From the NCBI GenBank assembly GCA_017396895.1, contig JAFQKN010000180.1, forward strand, positions 1 to 40,583: a stretch of 40,583 bases of DNA, written 5' to 3'. This DNA comes from Clostridia bacterium (GTDB lineage: Bacteria > Bacillota > Clostridia > Oscillospirales > Acutalibacteraceae). The translations under genes were made by a program, and so were the position numbers. Shown here in pieces: positions 2,270-17,266 of the stretch (position 1 is its first letter; each line of letters starts with the position of its first letter). The notes under the pieces are model-generated. The model saw only the letters and a program-made list of their open reading frames with translations. It searched no databases and was not told where the DNA came from.

Positions 2270-2776
2270 ATGCTGAATATTCAAAACCAAAATGAATCGT
2301 TTCTTTTTTCTGCCGCCAATGAATGCGTGCACCTTCTGATACAAAATAATTTCCGCATCACAATGGCAGAATCCTGTACGGGCGGAATGCTGGCTGCAAG
2401 CATCGTATCCGTCCCCGATGCATCGAAAGTCTTTGATGCATCTTTTGTAACCTATGCAAACGAAGCAAAAATGAAATACCTCGGTGTCAGCGAAGAAAGC
2501 ATTGCCGTTCACGGCGTTGTCAGTGAACAGGTTGCAGGAGAAATGGCACAAGGATGTGCAAAAGCCAATCTCGCGCAGATCGGCGTCGGCATCAGCGGAA
2601 TTGCGGGGCCGGCGGGCGGCAGTGAAGAAAAGCCTGTCGGGACAGTCGCTTTCGGTTTCTTCATCAACGGCCGATTGCACACCCGTTTGATGCATTTTCC
2701 GAACCGCGGCAGACAGTTTATTCGGGAATCCGCTACCCTCTTTGCTCTCAACACGCTTTGCGATTTTTTGAAGTAA
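2270..2776 (+). CDS. pncC: Nicotinamide-nucleotide amidohydrolase, CinA C-terminal family
   Basis: A 168-residue protein consisting of the CinA C-terminal domain alone. The family deamidates nicotinamide mononucleotide to nicotinate mononucleotide in pyridine nucleotide salvage, in the cytoplasm. The family signature MAESCTGG lies at about residues 31-38, and GISGIAGPAGG near residue 107, followed by KPVGTVAFG. The length fits the stand-alone form; the N-terminal molybdopterin-binding domain of full CinA is absent, and no broken copy of it is seen upstream. The ribosome site is weak (AAAAGGG). It has its own promoter and is followed within 25 bases by the phosphatase promoter, so it is probably monocistronic. 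Confidence 0.9.
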   Translation: MLNIQNQNESFLFSAANECVHLLIQNNFRITMAESCTGGMLAASIVSVPDASKVFDASFVTYANEAKMKYLGVSEESIAVHGVVSEQVAGEMAQGCAKANLAQIGVGISGIAGPAGGSEEKPVGTVAFGFFINGRLHTRLMHFPNRGRQFIRESATLFALNTLCDFLK

Positions 2777-2799
2777 GAAAAAAAATAGCAATGAAAGTC

Positions 2800-2829
2800 T
2801 TGCAATTGTCTGCTGTAATAGTGTATAAT
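2800..2829 (+). promoter_or_regulatory. Promoter of the alkaline phosphatase gene
   Basis: TTGCAA (2800-2805), 18 bases, TATAAT (2824-2829). A GAGGAG ribosome site follows before the ATG at 2867. Confidence 0.7.
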
Positions 2830-2866
2830 TATTGGAAAGATAAATAAACATGAGGAGTGTTTTATT

Positions 2867-3976
2867 ATGAGCCCGATTCTTGTAAAATTGATTTCAGCCC
2901 TTACCACTTTTCTGCTGATCATGCAGGGTTTGTTTATCACCCCTGTCATCAACGAAAACAAAACCGATTTTGAGGGAGTTAAAAACGTCATTTTCATGAT
3001 CGGTGACGGTATGGGCTTTAACAGCATTGAAAAGACAAAAGCCGAAGAAGGTGTCTCCCTTGCAATGGACACCTTTGAACTCAGAGGGCAGAGCCGCACC
3101 GCTTCCGCAAACAGCATTATAACCGACAGTGCCGCAGGCGGTACTGCTCTTGCAACAGGTGTAAGAACCGCGAACGGTGCCATCGGCGTATACATGGGTG
3201 ACAGAGACAACATAGCAAGCCACCCGATGAATCTGACGGAATTGGCTATCGAAATGGGAAAAACCGCCGGTGTTATCACCACCGATTCCACTTCCGGTGC
3301 AACCCCCGCCTCCTTCTCCGCACACGCAAATGACCGTGACGACGAGCACGTCATTACGCCCCAACAATTGGCAGGCGATCTGACCGTTATGTGGGGCGGT
3401 ACCACTTCTTCTTTCACCGCTGAAGCCGCTGAAGAATACGGTTGGACGGCTGTTTATGACAAAGAAGATATGGACGCACTCGAAGAAGGCAGTCGCAGTT
3501 TCGGTCAGTTTACGAATGCTCTTTGGCACGCGGAACAGACCAACGGAATGCCGACTCTTGCGGAAATGACCGAAAAAGCCATTGACCTGATCGACGATGA
3601 TGATGACGGATTCTTCCTGATGGTTGAAGGTGCGCACATTGACAAAAACAGTCACGACAACAACGGCGAAGGCATGAAAGATGCGCTGATCTCCTTTGAT
3701 GATGCCATTGCCGTAGCCCTTGCGTATGCAAAAGCAGACGGTGAAACGCTTGTTGTCATCACCGCCGACCATGAAACGGGCGGCATTCTCAAGATTGCAG
3801 GTGACTATGTTTACACCAGCGGCGGCCATTCCGGCTTTAACGTACCGCTTCTTGTTTACGGTTGCGACGATTTCATTCTTGATAATCAGTCTATTCCGAA
3901 CATTGAAGTTGCTCGCCGTGTTGCCTGCGCAATGGGAGCCACAAAGTTCCCTGTCCGCGTAGAAAACGCATTTTAA
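2867..3976 (+). CDS. Exported alkaline phosphatase
   Basis: A 369-residue alkaline phosphatase-superfamily enzyme, predicted to release phosphate from phosphomonoesters outside the membrane. Residues 1-28 form a hydrophobic signal peptide or anchor. The metal and active-site motifs are in the expected order: MIGDGMG (about 43-49), the phosphoserine motif TDSAAGGTA (about 85-93), EGAHIDKNSHDNN (about 253), ADHETGG (about 300) and GGHSGFNVPLLVYG (about 318), supplying Asp, Ser, His and Asp ligands. The protein is shorter than the E. coli enzyme, and its closing motif is HSG where many members have HTG or HTA. It sits alone between its own promoter and terminator. No Pho box was recognised, so phosphate control is not shown. 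Confidence 0.9.
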   Translation: MSPILVKLISALTTFLLIMQGLFITPVINENKTDFEGVKNVIFMIGDGMGFNSIEKTKAEEGVSLAMDTFELRGQSRTASANSIITDSAAGGTALATGVRTANGAIGVYMGDRDNIASHPMNLTELAIEMGKTAGVITTDSTSGATPASFSAHANDRDDEHVITPQQLAGDLTVMWGGTTSSFTAEAAEEYGWTAVYDKEDMDALEEGSRSFGQFTNALWHAEQTNGMPTLAEMTEKAIDLIDDDDDGFFLMVEGAHIDKNSHDNNGEGMKDALISFDDAIAVALAYAKADGETLVVITADHETGGILKIAGDYVYTSGGHSGFNVPLLVYGCDDFILDNQSIPNIEVARRVACAMGATKFPVRVENAF

Positions 3977-3988
3977 GAGTTTTTTACG

Positions 3989-4016
3989 GGCCGTCCGTTG
4001 CGGGCGGCCTTTATTC
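3989..4016 (+). terminator. Terminator after the phosphatase
   Basis: GGCCGTCCG (3989-3997), a TTG loop and CGGGCGGCC (4001-4009), with one mismatch or wobble, then TTTATT. Confidence 0.8.
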
Positions 4017-4050
4017 GTATACAGAACAAAAAAAAGAAAGGACATTGCGA

Positions 4051-5418
4051 ATGACTGCGTTCAATCCGAATATGATGCATACCATCCAAAAACTGTGCGC
4101 AATATGTGCCTCCAACGACTTGATCGACAAAGAGTTATACACGGTCCACAAGGTCAATCGCGGCCTGCGCGACCTGGACGGAAACGGGGTTTTGACGGGC
4201 TTGACGGAGATTTCGGAGATCATAGCCAAACAGCCTGCCGGCGACAAACTGATTCCTTGTGAAGGCACACTCTATTATCGCGGTTACAACGTACGCGATC
4301 TGGTCAACGGTTACATTTCCGATGATCGCTTCGGCTTTGAGGAGATCGTCTATCTTCTGCTGATCGGACACTTGCCGAACAAAACAGCATTGGAGGAGTT
4401 CAAAAATTTGCTCGGCAGTATGCGAACGCTTCCGCCGTCTTTCTCGCGCGATATCATTATGAAAGCCCCCAGTTCCGATATTATGAACTCCCTGTCGCGC
4501 AGTGTGCTGACATTGTATTCTTACGACAAAAATGCAGACGATACTTCCAATGAAAACGTACTGCGCCAATGCCTGCAACTCATTTCCATGTTCCCGATGT
4601 TGGCGGTATACGGTTATCAGGCCATGAATTATTATATCAAAGGCAGCAACAGTTTCTTTCTGCATGAGCCGGATCCTTCCCTTTCCACCGCAGAAAACAT
4701 TTTGATGATGTTGCGCGACGACCGTAAGTATTCGCCGTTGGAAGCAAAAATTTTGGATCTCGCACTGATTCTGCATGCCGAGCACGGTGGCGGCAACAAC
4801 TCCACATTTACGACACACGTAGTCACATCTTCCGGTACGGACACCTATTCTGCCGTAGCCTCTGCGCTCGGTTCCCTCAAAGGCCCGAAACACGGCGGTG
4901 CAAACATCAAAGTCTGTCATATGTTTGACAACATCATGGAAAACCTGCACGACTGGGAAGACGATGATGAGATCAGCGCTTATTTGCTGAAATTATTGAA
5001 CAAAGAAGCCTTTGACCAAAGCGGCCTTATTTACGGTGTCGGTCATGCCATTTATTCCGTATCAGATCCGCGTGCGGTCATTTTCCGTTCCTTTGTTGAA
5101 AAACTCTGCGCCGAAAAAGGCAAAGAAAAGGAATTTGCCCTGTATGCGAAAGTGGAAGAACTTGCACCGAAAATTATTGCAGAACGCAGAAAAATGTATA
5201 AAGGCGTCAGCGTGAACGTTGACTTTTACAGCGGATTCGTTTACAGAATGCTCGGCATCCCCGAAGAACTGTTTACCCCCTTGTTTGCCATTGCCCGCAT
5301 AGCAGGTTGGAGTGCACACCGCATGGAAGAACTTGTAAATGCAGGTAAGATCATCCGTCCTGCTTACCTTGCCGTGGGTGAAAGGAAAGACTATATTCCG
5401 ATTTCGGAGCGTTCATAA
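4051..5418 (+). CDS. Citrate synthase
   Basis: A 455-residue citrate synthase-family enzyme condensing acetyl-CoA with oxaloacetate. The three catalytic positions are recognisable: His in LHAEHGGGNNSTF (about 241-253), His in GVGHAIYS (about 329-336) and Asp in VNVDFYSG (about 388-395). The GVGHAIYSVSDPRA form and the long N-terminal extension before IPCEGTLYYRGY are typical of the clostridial subgroup; 2-methylcitrate synthase activity cannot be excluded by eye. Start ATG 4051 is preferred over the in-frame TTG at 4045 because AAAGGA at 4037-4042 is then 8 bases away. It heads a tight co-directional run: its stop shares one base with the next start. Confidence 0.92.
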   Translation: MTAFNPNMMHTIQKLCAICASNDLIDKELYTVHKVNRGLRDLDGNGVLTGLTEISEIIAKQPAGDKLIPCEGTLYYRGYNVRDLVNGYISDDRFGFEEIVYLLLIGHLPNKTALEEFKNLLGSMRTLPPSFSRDIIMKAPSSDIMNSLSRSVLTLYSYDKNADDTSNENVLRQCLQLISMFPMLAVYGYQAMNYYIKGSNSFFLHEPDPSLSTAENILMMLRDDRKYSPLEAKILDLALILHAEHGGGNNSTFTTHVVTSSGTDTYSAVASALGSLKGPKHGGANIKVCHMFDNIMENLHDWEDDDEISAYLLKLLNKEAFDQSGLIYGVGHAIYSVSDPRAVIFRSFVEKLCAEKGKEKEFALYAKVEELAPKIIAERRKMYKGVSVNVDFYSGFVYRMLGIPEELFTPLFAIARIAGWSAHRMEELVNAGKIIRPAYLAVGERKDYIPISERS

Positions 5419-14053: not shown

Positions 14054-14082
14054 TTGCAATCCGAACAGGAAAATGATATGAT
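14054..14082 (+). promoter_or_regulatory. Promoter of the DtxR-type regulator
   Basis: TTGCAA (14054-14059), 17 bases, TATGAT (14077-14082) with an extended -10 TGA. The predicted transcript starts about 19 bases before the ATG. Confidence 0.75.
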
Positions 14083-14107
14083 AATAAAAAATGAACGGAG
14101 GGACATC

Positions 14108-14476
14108 ATGAAAATCAGAGAATCCGCAGAAAACTACCTCGAAGCGATCTTGATTGAGAGCCGGAACAAAGACAGAGTGCGCGCAATCGACATTTGTACC
14201 CATCTCGGCTTTTCAAGACCGACCGTCAGCGTGATGCTCAAAAACCTTCGTGAAAAGGGCCTTGTGGAAATCGATGAAAACAGTTCTCTGTTTTTGACAG
14301 AGCAGGGGTTGCAAATTGCCTGCGCCACATATGAACGGCATTGCGTAATTGCTGAACTGCTCATAAAGATCGGCGTTTCCCCGGAAACCGCAAGGAAAGA
14401 TGCCTGTAAACTGGAACACGATCTGAGTGAAGAATCCTTCGCCTGCCTCAAAAAACATCTTGCATCTCTCACCTGA
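14108..14476 (+). CDS. DtxR/MntR-type metal-dependent regulator
   Basis: A 122-residue transcription factor with an N-terminal winged helix-turn-helix (RAIDICTHLGFSRPTVSVMLKNLREKGLVEI, about residues 20-51) followed by the dimerisation/metal-binding segment with the family's Cys/Glu/His cluster (DACKLEHDLSEESF, about 98-111). Relatives sense Mn2+ or Fe2+ and repress metal uptake. It lacks the SH3-like third domain, as in MntR. ACGGAGGGAC directs initiation at 14108; the in-frame codon at 14054 is part of its own -35 box. It is transcribed divergently from the liv operon and ends with an 8-base tail-to-tail overlap with the S-component gene. Its targets are not visible here; the manganese-riboswitch-controlled ATPase at the window end shows metal handling in this genome. 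Confidence 0.82.
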   Translation: MKIRESAENYLEAILIESRNKDRVRAIDICTHLGFSRPTVSVMLKNLREKGLVEIDENSSLFLTEQGLQIACATYERHCVIAELLIKIGVSPETARKDACKLEHDLSEESFACLKKHLASLT

Positions 14477-14981
14477 AAGCGGTTTTGCTGCGCAGTTTGC
14501 ACAGCACTTTGGAAAGTGGCAAGATCAGCAATCCCGCAACCGTATTGCCGACAAAATGCAAAACGTCATACGGAAATCCCGCCGCGATCCACGCGATCAA
14601 TTGCTCAAAATCAAGATGAAACAGCAATGCCTGCGCCGGTGCATACAACACACCGTAAAACAGGCCGTGCAAACCGCACACCAGCGGATAGACGACGGTC
14701 GCGGTCTTGTCTTTCATTTGTTTGGGCAACAGCATGGTAATTCCCCAAAGGATCGTCCATATATACAGATACGGTATCCACCACAGCGAAAACCCTGCAT
14801 ACAATCCCTGTAACACCACGTAAAGATAAATCGGGATCAGTGCATATTTGCGGTAAACAAGCGTCAACAGCATTGTAAACATACCGAGCAGATGAATGTT
14901 CGGCAGAAATTCCATCAACTGTTTGGAACAGAACATGAGTGCGGCGAACATGGAAAACACGGCAAGGTCTGCCAAAGGCAA
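14469..14981 (-). CDS. ECF-type transporter S-component-like protein, probable cobalamin uptake
   Basis: A 170-residue very hydrophobic protein with about six membrane segments, size and pattern of ECF transporter S components (ADLAVFSMFAALMF opening, FPNIHLLGM-like region, LHGLFYGVLYAP). S components bind a vitamin and dock on the shared EcfA/A'/T module encoded elsewhere. Cobalamin specificity is inferred from the upstream B12 riboswitch and the DUF4430 partner. The start is a TTG at 14981 with AAGG 8 bases before it; no ATG or GTG is available in frame, although the frame stays open upstream and encodes a Lys-rich stretch. The stop overlaps the regulator's stop by 8 bases. Confidence 0.7.
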   Translation of the reverse strand: MPLADLAVFSMFAALMFCSKQLMEFLPNIHLLGMFTMLLTLVYRKYALIPIYLYVVLQGLYAGFSLWWIPYLYIWTILWGITMLLPKQMKDKTATVVYPLVCGLHGLFYGVLYAPAQALLFHLDFEQLIAWIAAGFPYDVLHFVGNTVAGLLILPLSKVLCKLRSKTAFR

Positions 14982-15021
14982 CGCACCGACCTTACCGTTT
15001 TTTTTATGTTCTTTTTTTTCG

Positions 15022-15492
15022 TTAACCTACCGTGTAGACAAGTTCATAGTGCTGTCCGTCGGCAATGGCGGTGTCACTTGCACCCGTCATCAGCATTTCA
15101 CCGTTCGAATAAAGTGCCCAGTATGCTTTGTCCAGATCGTAATCCGCACGGATTCCGTTGACGGATTTAATATAAAGCCCGTAAGCACCCTGCTCGCCCT
15201 CAACAAGACCTTCTGCGAGCAATGCATCTCCGAGATTATCGGCATCGGTGCTGACGGTAAAGGTCTGCGTATTGCCGTCTGCATCCACAACATCGACCGT
15301 AAGCGTGATCTTTTTCTGAACATTCTCTGCGGACATTGTGCCGTCAGAAGCAGGTACGGCTGTTGCATCTTTCGTAATGTCCTCGACAGCACCCGAAAGA
15401 TCGGGGGTTTCATTTTCACCCTGCGTACAGGCAGTCAGCATCAGACACAAAGAGCAAAGCAACGCAAGGGACAGTGCAAGAATTTTTTTCAT
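15022..15492 (-). CDS. DUF4430 (transcobalamin C-terminal-like) lipoprotein
   Basis: A 156-residue lipoprotein with lipobox LTAC (residues 19-22), an acidic linker (residues 23-58) and a DUF4430 domain in the second half, recognised by LGDALLAEGLV, a GIRADYDLDKAYWALYSNGE block and TAIADGQHYELVYT. This domain is named for its similarity to the C-terminal domain of transcobalamin and intrinsic factor, which cover bound B12. It should sit on the outer membrane face and present B12, or a related corrinoid, to the S component encoded 40 bases downstream. TCAGGAGGAAAAAC precedes the start. Expression is predicted to be cut off by cobalamin through the riboswitch and terminator upstream. Confidence 0.85.
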   Translation of the reverse strand: MKKILALSLALLCSLCLMLTACTQGENETPDLSGAVEDITKDATAVPASDGTMSAENVQKKITLTVDVVDADGNTQTFTVSTDADNLGDALLAEGLVEGEQGAYGLYIKSVNGIRADYDLDKAYWALYSNGEMLMTGASDTAIADGQHYELVYTVG

Positions 15493-15509
15493 GTTTTTCC
15501 TCCTGAAAT

Positions 15510-15541
15510 AAAAAAATCGTACTCTGCAAAATAGAGCACGA
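15510..15541 (-). terminator. Terminator of the cobalamin riboswitch
   Basis: On the minus strand, TCGTGCTCT and AGAGTACGA form a 9-bp stem with one G-T pair around a 7-base loop, followed by seven T residues, ending 10 bases before the ribosome site. This is a transcription-attenuation expression platform. Confidence 0.85.
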
Positions 15542-15554
15542 CCAAAAGAAAAGA

Positions 15555-15769
15555 TACACCTGCGTATATCCTTGTTTTCTTTATGTGCGTCGTGTTCCCC
15601 TTTTGCCCGGGAACCGTTTCACGAACGAAAGACTGAGCATTCCGACTTCTCTTTGCAGAGTCACGGCAATGGCTGTTGCTTCGGATTTTCACCGATATTT
15701 CCTCAGCATCGAATGCGTGCGCGGCATCCGACCGTATCATCAAGTGATACGCAGTCGTGTGATTCAGTT
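15555..15769 (-). ncRNA. Cobalamin riboswitch
   Basis: Read on the minus strand, the leader holds the core signatures of the cobalamin riboswitch family in order: GAGGAAATATCGGTGAAAATCC (starting 15704; the conserved GGTGAAAATCC spans 15693-15683), the B12-box-like CAGCCATTGCCGTGA that follows, and AAGTCGGAATGCTC (from 15648). A further hairpin (GGTTCCC...GGGGAAC, about 15617-15590) could provide the kissing-loop partner. The B12 box is GCCATTG where the consensus is GCCACTG. The leader begins near 15769 and runs into a terminator. It precedes the DUF4430 and S-component genes. Ligand subtype (adenosyl- or methyl-/hydroxocobalamin) cannot be told by eye. Confidence 0.85.
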
Positions 15770-15775
15770 TTCATT

Positions 15776-15804
15776 ATCATATCATAAACAAACGGAATTG
15801 TCAA
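15776..15804 (-). promoter_or_regulatory. Promoter of the cobalamin-controlled operon
   Basis: On the minus strand, TTGACA (15804-15799), 17 bases, TATGAT (15781-15776), with an extended -10 TGA. Divergent from the GPH symporter promoter. Confidence 0.8.
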
Positions 15805-15820
15805 TTCCCGTGTTTTTATC

Positions 15821-15849
15821 TTGCATAAATGAAAAACATGGTATATAGT
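15821..15849 (+). promoter_or_regulatory. Promoter of the first GPH symporter
   Basis: TTGCAT (15821-15826), 17 bases, TATAGT (15844-15849). Confidence 0.6.
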
Positions 15850-15889
15850 GTAGGAAAGGCAAAAAGAAACAAAAGAGAGGACGTTTTTT

Positions 15890-17266
15890 ATGAAAGAAGT
15901 TTCAAAGAAAATCATACTTTGCTACACCTTGCCGCAGTTTGCGGTGGGACTTTTCACCACCATGCTCAACAATTACCTCATTTATTTCTATCAGCCTACA
16001 CAGGCATCGGGCTTGCCGACGCTCATTACACAGGGCGTTGTCGTTCTCGGTATTCTGACCGTGATCGGTTTCATCAAAGCCGTCGGCCATATCATTGATG
16101 CGTTTACGGATCCCGTCGTAGCCAACATCAGCGACAAATGCAAACACAAAAACGGCAGAAGAATCCCGTTCATGCGTTGGTTTGCAATTCCCTACGCACT
16201 GTGCTCGTTGCTCATTTTCTGTGCACCCGCAAATGAACCGGGGATGCTGAACAACATCTGGCTGACTGTATTTTTGTGGGGTTACTACGTTTTCTATACG
16301 CTTTATATGATCCCGCACCACGCATTGTTGCCCGAAATGATCTCCTCCTCCGAACGCCGCGTGGATGCCTACACCATGAGTTCCCTGTTTTTTGTACTCG
16401 GCAGCATGGTCGGCTACGCCACCACCGCATTCGTTTCGATCTTCAAATCCATGGGCTGTTCCGCTTTGGCATCCTGGCGTATCACGTTCGGCATTTTCAC
16501 CGCCGTGGGTGTTGTGTTGCTCCTGCTCCCCACCTTCACCATCCGCGAAAAGGACTACGTGCAGTCCGTACAGCCGACCGTTTCCTTAATGGCATCACTC
16601 AAACACGCATTTGCCAATAAAAACTTTACGGTACTGACCGTTGCACAGTTGCTCGAAGGCACGGGCATGGCGATCTTCCAGGCCTGTATCATGTATTACA
16701 TCACAGACCTTCTTGAACTGCCCGAATCGCAATCGATCATCATTATGGCTTCGTCCATCGTCGGTTCACTCGTGCTGTATCCTTTCGTCAACAAATGGGC
16801 AAAGAACAAAGGTAAAAAAGTACCCATGATGGTCGGCTGTGCAGTGTTTGCACTGAGTTGTTTCGTGATCTGTTTCGTTGAACAGTTACCCGGCACCAAT
16901 ATGGTCAAAGGCGTAGTGTTTGCACTGGTCGTTTCCTTCCCGTTTGCCGTGCTCAACATATTGCCGGGCTCCATGATGAGCGACGTAATTCACCACGATA
17001 CCATCAAAACGGGTGTCAACCAGGAAGGCATTTTCAGTGCCGCAAAGAGCTTTATTACAAAAATGGGGACATCCATTGCAATCATGATCGTTCCCTCGCT
17101 GACCGTCATAGGTGCACAGGAAGGCGAAAACGTCGGCAAAACAGGCTTGCTTCTGACCGCAGTGGTCGGCGGTGTGATCTGTTTGATCTCGGTTGCGGTG
17201 TTTGCACTGTACAAAGAAAAGGATATTCTCAGCGACATCAAAGCACACAAAGAAAAGAACGGTTAA
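15890..17266 (+). CDS. GPH/MelB-family sugar:cation symporter
   Basis: A 458-residue membrane transporter with about 12 hydrophobic segments. The block AVGHIIDAFTDPVVANISDKCKHKNGRRIPFM (about 64-95) contains the family's two acidic cation/sugar residues and the Asp-Arg loop motif; YTLYMIPHHALLPEM follows at about 143. GPH proteins import oligosaccharides, glycosides or glucuronides with Na+ or H+; the sugar cannot be told. No glycosidase gene is adjacent. GAGAGGA precedes the start. It is single, between its own promoter and a terminator. Confidence 0.88.
   Translation: MKEVSKKIILCYTLPQFAVGLFTTMLNNYLIYFYQPTQASGLPTLITQGVVVLGILTVIGFIKAVGHIIDAFTDPVVANISDKCKHKNGRRIPFMRWFAIPYALCSLLIFCAPANEPGMLNNIWLTVFLWGYYVFYTLYMIPHHALLPEMISSSERRVDAYTMSSLFFVLGSMVGYATTAFVSIFKSMGCSALASWRITFGIFTAVGVVLLLLPTFTIREKDYVQSVQPTVSLMASLKHAFANKNFTVLTVAQLLEGTGMAIFQACIMYYITDLLELPESQSIIIMASSIVGSLVLYPFVNKWAKNKGKKVPMMVGCAVFALSCFVICFVEQLPGTNMVKGVVFALVVSFPFAVLNILPGSMMSDVIHHDTIKTGVNQEGIFSAAKSFITKMGTSIAIMIVPSLTVIGAQEGENVGKTGLLLTAVVGGVICLISVAVFALYKEKDILSDIKAHKEKNG

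Follow-up and report, generated by a model that had tools for sequence, protein, structure and literature searches.

A riboswitch-led operon for a CbrT-like S-component and a DUF4430 lipoprotein as a probable B12 uptake locus in a Clostridia bacterium

A stretch of 40,583 nucleotides from a Clostridia bacterium of the order Oscillospirales (assembly GCA_017396895.1, contig JAFQKN010000180.1; hereafter the window), part of a draft assembly of 194 contigs and 2.69 Mb, carries on its minus strand a compact operon. From about position 15804 to 14469, it consists of a leader, a terminator, a ribosome-binding site and two genes, one for a lipoprotein with a DUF4430 domain and one for a membrane protein resembling CbrT, an S-component of energy-coupling factor (ECF) transporters. 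We conclude that this is very probably a cobalamin-repressed, CbrT-type B12 uptake operon. An earlier note on this DNA had proposed a B12 capture module in which the lipoprotein hands its ligand over to an ECF transporter, and our analysis partly supports that interpretation: the observation is real and its main idea is right, the transporter half is already known as CbrT, and the proposal for the lipoprotein already exists as an annotation.

The CbrT-like S-component and its lipoprotein partner

Searched as a single sequence, the membrane protein gave no match over the Pfam cut-offs, in NCBIfam or in the PDB. The profile of its 53-member family had one PDB match only, CbrT (6fnp_A; E 6.3e-24, profile positions 4-174 of 177), and by this homology the protein is predicted to group with CbrT. 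Its AlphaFold2 model (mean predicted local distance difference test score, pLDDT, of 93.6) indicates an S-component fold: the best rows in a VIA-align structure comparison were RibU (14.3 and 13.3) and the folate ECF complex (13.2), followed by FolT, BioY, PanT, BtuM and ThiT at 12.2 to about 10, of which the lower rows call for the caution usual with helical bundles; 6fnp is absent among the rows listed. The protein had been taken for an ECF S-component before; it now proves CbrT-like by profile and S-component-like by model, and the family matched is the one of the proposed specificity rather than a different one.

CbrT, which according to PMC5997447 was predicted by Rodionov et al. in 2009, has been shown experimentally to transport cobalamin and cobinamide, and ECF-CbrT of Lactobacillus delbrueckii is described as a functional complex that CbrT forms with the ECF module (PMC5997447). 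The view that both protein types lack a settled function is therefore not supported for the S-component. With ECF-CbrT (PDB 6fnp), the window shares the S-component family, the S-component fold, a shared ECF module (on contig C192, one EcfT match passes the cut-off and has an ATP-binding cassette ATPase gene beside it) and the proposed cargo, cobalamin or cobinamide. The gene order differs: in L. delbrueckii the cluster is nrdJ-cbrS-cbrT-pduO (PMC5997447), whereas the window has a riboswitch-led pair of DUF4430 lipoprotein and cbrT. CbrT of the window would take up cobalamin or cobinamide by docking onto the shared EcfA/EcfT module, the genes of which lie in another part of the genome.

In the lipoprotein a lipobox-type LTAC, read by eye, ends at residue 22, and the DUF4430 domain that had been reported for this protein is present (PF14478; residues 87-147, 41.1 bits against a cut-off of 23.8, E 2.5e-10). 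Its closest solved relative is 3u7z (E 1.1e-14 with the single sequence, 6.1e-24 with the profile), the RUMGNA_00854 protein deposited as a putative metal binding protein, a name without a link to cobalamin. The second is human transcobalamin-1 (haptocorrin; PDB 4kki), whose beta-domain aligns with the DUF4430 region, as the earlier note had it, with weak similarity (E 6e-4 with the single sequence, 3.7e-4 with the profile). In this beta-domain, Arg357, Trp359 and Tyr362 are the bulky residues that contact the corrinoid (PMC4350170). Judged by spacing in the alignment, they would correspond to Arg, Trp and Tyr within RSWGPY, where the window's lipoprotein reads AYGLY. We aligned the latter with 71 of the 77 cbrT-linked lipoproteins found: the two aromatic positions aligned to the transcobalamin contacts hold Tyr or Phe in 67 and 69 of the 72 proteins, and Trp125 is invariant. 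In this comparison, which rests on sequence, the aromatic residues are suggestive of a link to B12 and could also be structural. The human carrier has, in addition, a corrinoid-contacting alpha-domain (PMC4350170), whereas the window's protein has the beta-like domain only: in its 156 residues DUF4430 is the sole Pfam match over the cut-off, and no transcobalamin-type alpha-domain was found. More tentatively, the lipoprotein may be a single transcobalamin-beta-like domain exposed at the outer side of the membrane, which would bind the corrinoid and then either offer it to CbrT or cap the cavity of CbrT.

The idea of such a role is already in circulation: in Lactobacillus rhamnosus there is an entry annotated as "Additional lipoprotein component of putative cobalamin ECF transporter" (PMC9963975). 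The proposal is the same as ours, a lipoprotein going with a cobalamin ECF transporter; in the part of that paper available, it is a table row without an experiment and without a stated DUF4430 identity, and a DUF4430 gene adjoins rtpR. A comparable role is known from BtuG of Bacteroides, a B12-capturing surface lipoprotein encoded in riboswitch-controlled loci, which works like the model put forward here for the window's lipoprotein; its partner is the outer-membrane btuB, and the BlastP settings of that study gave no homologues outside Bacteroidetes (PMC6143338). Our search of titles and abstract openings, with preprints and most subscription papers outside its scope, found none on bacterial transcobalamin-like proteins, on a lipoprotein together with a cobalamin ECF transporter, or on the surface-layer (S-layer) system described below.

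The association of the two genes is conserved. A survey of 197 genomes of the order yielded 73 S-component rows, of which the three weakest were dropped, so that the S-component is present in 70 of the 197; the lipoprotein gene lay upstream on the same strand in 62 of the 65 loci inspected out of the 73. A second set, the named loci, was gathered with a single protein (alignment A1 had no stretch conserved enough) and comprises the best 80 of 251 loci, and thus leans towards close relatives. The lipoprotein gene was upstream in 77 of these 80, with gaps of -121 to +21 bases when the S-component frame is counted from its first possible start; two of the loci (L108, L136) had less than 450 bases upstream available. 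Riboswitch scans covered 68 of the 70 S-component genomes (G132 and G147 were left out); of the matches, 37/47 for RF00174 and 13/19 for RF01689 lay at most 2 kb upstream from the gene for the S-component. Together, a cobalamin riboswitch precedes 48 of the 70 loci. The trio of riboswitch, lipoprotein and S-component thus recurred in the neighbourhood survey, as expected from the earlier note. Three aptamer models precede the same gene pair: RF00174, RF01689-like and RF01482, the last in Subdoligranulum variabile (55.3 bits) and Enterococcus raffinosus (41 bits, below the cut-off of 50). Within 4.5 kb, the commonest neighbour cluster was of the MetH type, at 7 of the 80 named loci (one member was Pfam-checked, and neighbour clusters were partly identified).

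Two replicons recorded as plasmids likewise carry the gene pair, in each case preceded by a leader of the RF01482 type: one in E. raffinosus (L203, megaplasmid NZ_CP081847.1) and one in S. variabile (L204, OY725838.1).

The cobalamin riboswitch and the terminator

The leader of the operon was assigned with a purpose-built covariance model. At Rfam gathering scores, the scan of the window gave zero matches. When positions 15300-16000 alone (701 bases) were searched at a low threshold, AdoCbl-II (RF01689) matched with 26.2 bits (E 9.5e-4), below its gathering threshold of 36.5 bits, which was reached in one of the 68 related genomes. A second AdoCbl-II-like match in the same genome (contig C108, 20.3 bits) was rejected, as it overlaps a flavin mononucleotide (FMN) riboswitch of 117.3 bits; the gene behind the latter resembles a riboflavin S-component (by eye). 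AdoCbl-II scores near 20 bits can therefore arise by chance, which makes the 26.2 bits of the window weak alone and leaves the decision to the model R1. Class I (RF00174) was considered for this leader and gave no match in the window's own genome at E 0.001.

For R1, we collected the leaders that precede related S-component genes. The core motif was present in 54 of them, and 34 of these entered the model; the other 20 comprised leaders of unusual length or composition, near duplicates and the three nearest relatives of the window's locus, and the window itself was excluded as well. The three relatives belong to the 80 named loci and come from metagenome assemblies with the titles Oscillospiraceae or Clostridia bacterium; their S-components are 81-86% identical to that of the window. 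R1 matched the window's leader with 96.9 bits (E 3.9e-19), the next-best match in the window being at 7.1 bits (E 8.1), and it matched 60 of the 80 named loci, including 26 of the 46 not used in building it. In the alignment of the 34 leaders, 27 pairs are formed in 96.3% of 890 cells, and 14 of them show changes on both sides. None of 500 shuffles reached the observed paired percentage or covariation score and one reached the observed number of further pair types, while sliding the partners along the alignment lowered pairing to 36-50%; the test is biased towards this structure, since apart from helix 6, which we added, it came out of the alignment used for testing. The inner core (helix 4) is almost invariant and thus yields no evidence from covariation; the downstream hairpin (helix 6) is paired in 87.5% of cells. 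The leader thus shows the conserved core, the covariation and the position before B12 genes that mark the cobalamin riboswitch clan. The riboswitch assignment of the earlier note stands by R1 and falls short of Rfam's own cut-off.

The core elements and their order are the same as in AdoCbl-II (RF01689). Compared with its 81-position model, the related leaders add a conserved downstream hairpin with the loop GGGCAA; its counterpart in the window (15615-15594) we take to be P13-like. Many of them also add a 5' segment of the AAAGAATAAACGCAG type outside the model. In alignment A2 this conserved segment, AAAGAATAAACGCAG, occupies about columns 55-77 and precedes the AdoCbl-II-like core; a different sequence stands there in the window and its three nearest relatives.

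Table 1 Features of the operon in the window
Feature	Position	Strand	Details
Promoter-like TTGACA-17-TATGAT, TG before second hexamer	15776..15804	-	11/12 matches
Class-II-type cobalamin riboswitch aptamer	15581..15721	-	RF01689-like core 15721-15626; R1 model 15710-15581
Hairpin after core, GGTTCCC / GGGGAAC, loop with GGGCAAAA	15594..15615	-	Helix 6 of related leaders
Putative antiterminator 5' arm CACGAC	15589..15594	-	Complementary to GTCGTG 15542-15537 (foot of terminator stem)
Intrinsic terminator, 10-11 bp stem, 3' end into seven T	15516..15542	-	-12.3 kcal/mol
Ribosome-binding site AGGAGG	15499..15504	-	Read from sequence
DUF4430 lipoprotein, 156 residues, candidate B12-capturing accessory protein	15022..15492	-	
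Overlapping ATG 15047-15045 in the S-component frame, then in-frame TAG 15029-15027	15027..15047	-	
CbrT-like ECF S-component, 170 residues from TTG	14469..14981	-	

The terminator described earlier shortly before the ribosome-binding site was found again, its stem being followed by AGGAGG. The antiterminator stretch folds at -21.6 kcal/mol, compared with -12.3 for the terminator hairpin, and the CACGAC/GTCGTG-type complementarity is longer in the three nearest relatives (by eye). We infer from this complementarity how the switch may work. At low intracellular cobalamin, CACGAC would pair with GTCGTG, no terminator would form and the operon would be transcribed; bound cobalamin would stabilize the hairpin at 15615-15594 and withhold the CACGAC arm, so that the terminator could form and transcription would end before the first gene.

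Another strong hairpin, with the stem GATATAC / GTGTATC and A/T-rich flanks, lies between aptamer and terminator at about 15584-15543 on the minus strand, and the antiterminator pairing extends it. As for the promoter-like sequence, shuffles averaged 1.1 sites with at least nine matches in the scan. At the other end of the operon, a gene for a DtxR/MntR-like regulator (14054-14476, plus strand) converges on the S-component gene and overlaps its end by 8 bases; a similar-looking cluster occurs on the opposite strand in 3 of the 80 named loci.

DUF4430 next to other cobalamin riboswitches

DUF4430 is found far beyond the cbrT loci. Counts for the order were derived from 150 listed matches each of DUF4430 (the highest-scoring ones) and RF00174 and are lower bounds: the domain occurs in at least 146 of the 197 genomes, and 29 of its best 150 matches listed lie directly upstream of a counted S-component. 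Among the 150 RF00174 matches listed, 30 are at cbrT loci, 34 (from 32 genomes) have other DUF4430 matches no more than 6 kb downstream, and 86 have neither nearby. At a distance of 3 kb, DUF4430 is downstream of the riboswitch in 38 of the 150 listed, the position controls giving 0 (opposite strand) and 1 (upstream).

To detect the larger DUF4430 proteins, the hidden Markov model of the lipoprotein family was tried and rejected, as among the frames of loci L183-L202 it recovered only the cbrT-linked one in L196. The two DUF4430 groups are thus distant, and Pfam was used instead. In most of seven stretches of the larger group, a motif of the SGWMYxVN type is present; since this motif is different, the argument from aromatic contacts is limited to the cbrT-linked group. 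We hand-picked 20 regions, a non-random set chosen mostly for DUF4430 matches, which includes a cobalamin/cobalt locus without DUF4430 (L195) and a cbrT locus (L196). By tblastn (E up to 1e-4, query loci counted), matches to the alpha/alpha-toroid region of L188 were present in 15 of the 20, and EcfT, EcfA and S matches to the system of L185 in 12. Twelve of the picked regions hold one of the 34 riboswitches, and among these the toroid was found in 10 and the ECF set in 8. A fused EcfA-EcfA'-S frame is present in L183, L185, L188, L190 (cut) and L192, while the S part is separate in L187. Pfam identified in L185 a prenyltransferase-type toroid, DUF4430, S-layer domains, CbiQ and an ECF S domain; for L188 and L192, matches to the toroid fall below the Pfam cut-off. 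In the locus L193, one protein of 1034 residues (2307-5411, minus) combines toroid, DUF4430 and S-layer domains, directly downstream of a cobalamin riboswitch of 103 bits.

The six loci L183, L185, L187, L188, L190 and L192, from genomes of the same order, encode large secreted DUF4430 or S-layer proteins, a toroid protein, a small DUF4430 protein, EcfT and EcfA-EcfA'-S (mostly fused) behind a cobalamin riboswitch; they are candidates for a transcobalamin-like system that captures B12 and has an ECF transporter to itself.

Animal B12 carriers pair a toroid-like alpha/alpha-barrel, the alpha-domain, with a beta-domain. A toroid together with DUF4430 would be the same pair of domains; the toroid matches are to general prenyltransferase families, not specific to the carriers' own barrel. 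DUF4430 might accordingly be the bacterial transcobalamin beta-domain and a general surface B12 capture domain of Gram-positive gut bacteria, acting as a lipoprotein beside CbrT, as in the window, and, in related genomes, in an S-layer-anchored clamp of toroid and DUF4430, on one or two proteins, that feeds its own, often fused EcfA-EcfA'-S transporter under cobalamin riboswitches. We advance this tentatively, as a proposal about which we are slightly more doubtful than convinced; if it is true, bacterial and animal B12 carriers are relatives in both domains and in function.

Alternative explanations and significance

Several points weigh against a B12 uptake operon served by the lipoprotein. 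Of the 70 loci of the order, 22 have no match to the riboswitch models used, and 20 of the 80 named loci have no class-II (R1) match, 5 of these carrying a class-I motif; the expectation that homologous loci share the riboswitch is therefore borne out for the 48 with one and not for the rest. The CbrT complex was reported to work, with no lipoprotein mentioned in the part of the paper available (PMC5997447). In addition, the window's cbrT has a TAG in frame after the overlapping ATG, and the genome holds another candidate importer, FecCD with Peripla_BP_2.

The most serious rival accepts the transporter half and takes the DUF4430 lipoprotein for a structural or metal-binding accessory, for instance one that stabilizes or localizes CbrT, rather than a B12 binder. 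The description of ECF-CbrT from L. delbrueckii as a complex of ECF module and CbrT (PMC5997447) fits this, as do the metal-binding name of 3u7z and the wide distribution of DUF4430, with a minority of its best 150 matches listed directly upstream of an S-component. We nevertheless regard it as rather unlikely, given the retained aromatic residues at the transcobalamin contact positions, the at least 34 further cobalamin riboswitches upstream of other DUF4430 matches, and the contrast between the downstream count at 3 kb and its position controls.

A lower probability still attaches to the idea that the operon has another cargo, a corrinoid precursor or lower-ligand compound such as cobinamide or alpha-ribazole, with B12 acting only as the regulator; alpha-ribazole is the cargo proposed for CblT. 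The riboswitch indeed tells of regulation by cobalamin and not of cargo, and cobinamide is also carried by CbrT (PMC5997447), but CbrT was the only PDB match of the S-component profile, and the MetH type was the commonest among the partly identified neighbour clusters. Just as improbable, in our view, is that this genome is losing the operon, with CbrT removed by the premature TAG and B12 supplied by another importer, for which FecCD/Peripla_BP_2 is a candidate. The ATG overlaps the lipoprotein gene, the TAG follows after six codons, and the three nearest relatives have an open frame at this position. The remaining frame, however, is open from TTG 14981, its first usable start, 22 codons past the ATG and preceded by AAGG, and its product was modelled with the high pLDDT given above; the identity to the nearest relatives and the intact leader argue for selection until recently. 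Since the assembly is a draft, a sequence error at the TAG is possible. This cbrT copy may thus start at TTG 14981 or be weakly expressed, or the TAG may be such an error.

Under the favoured reading of a cobalamin-repressed, CbrT-type uptake operon, a conserved DUF4430 lipoprotein is linked across the order both with a B12 S-component of a proven type and with control by cobalamin. This association gives DUF4430, a domain of unknown function, a specific candidate role that is directly testable. If the lipoprotein binds corrinoids, it would provide Gram-positive bacteria with a surface capture step comparable to that of BtuG, carried out by a domain whose relatives include the human B12 carriers.

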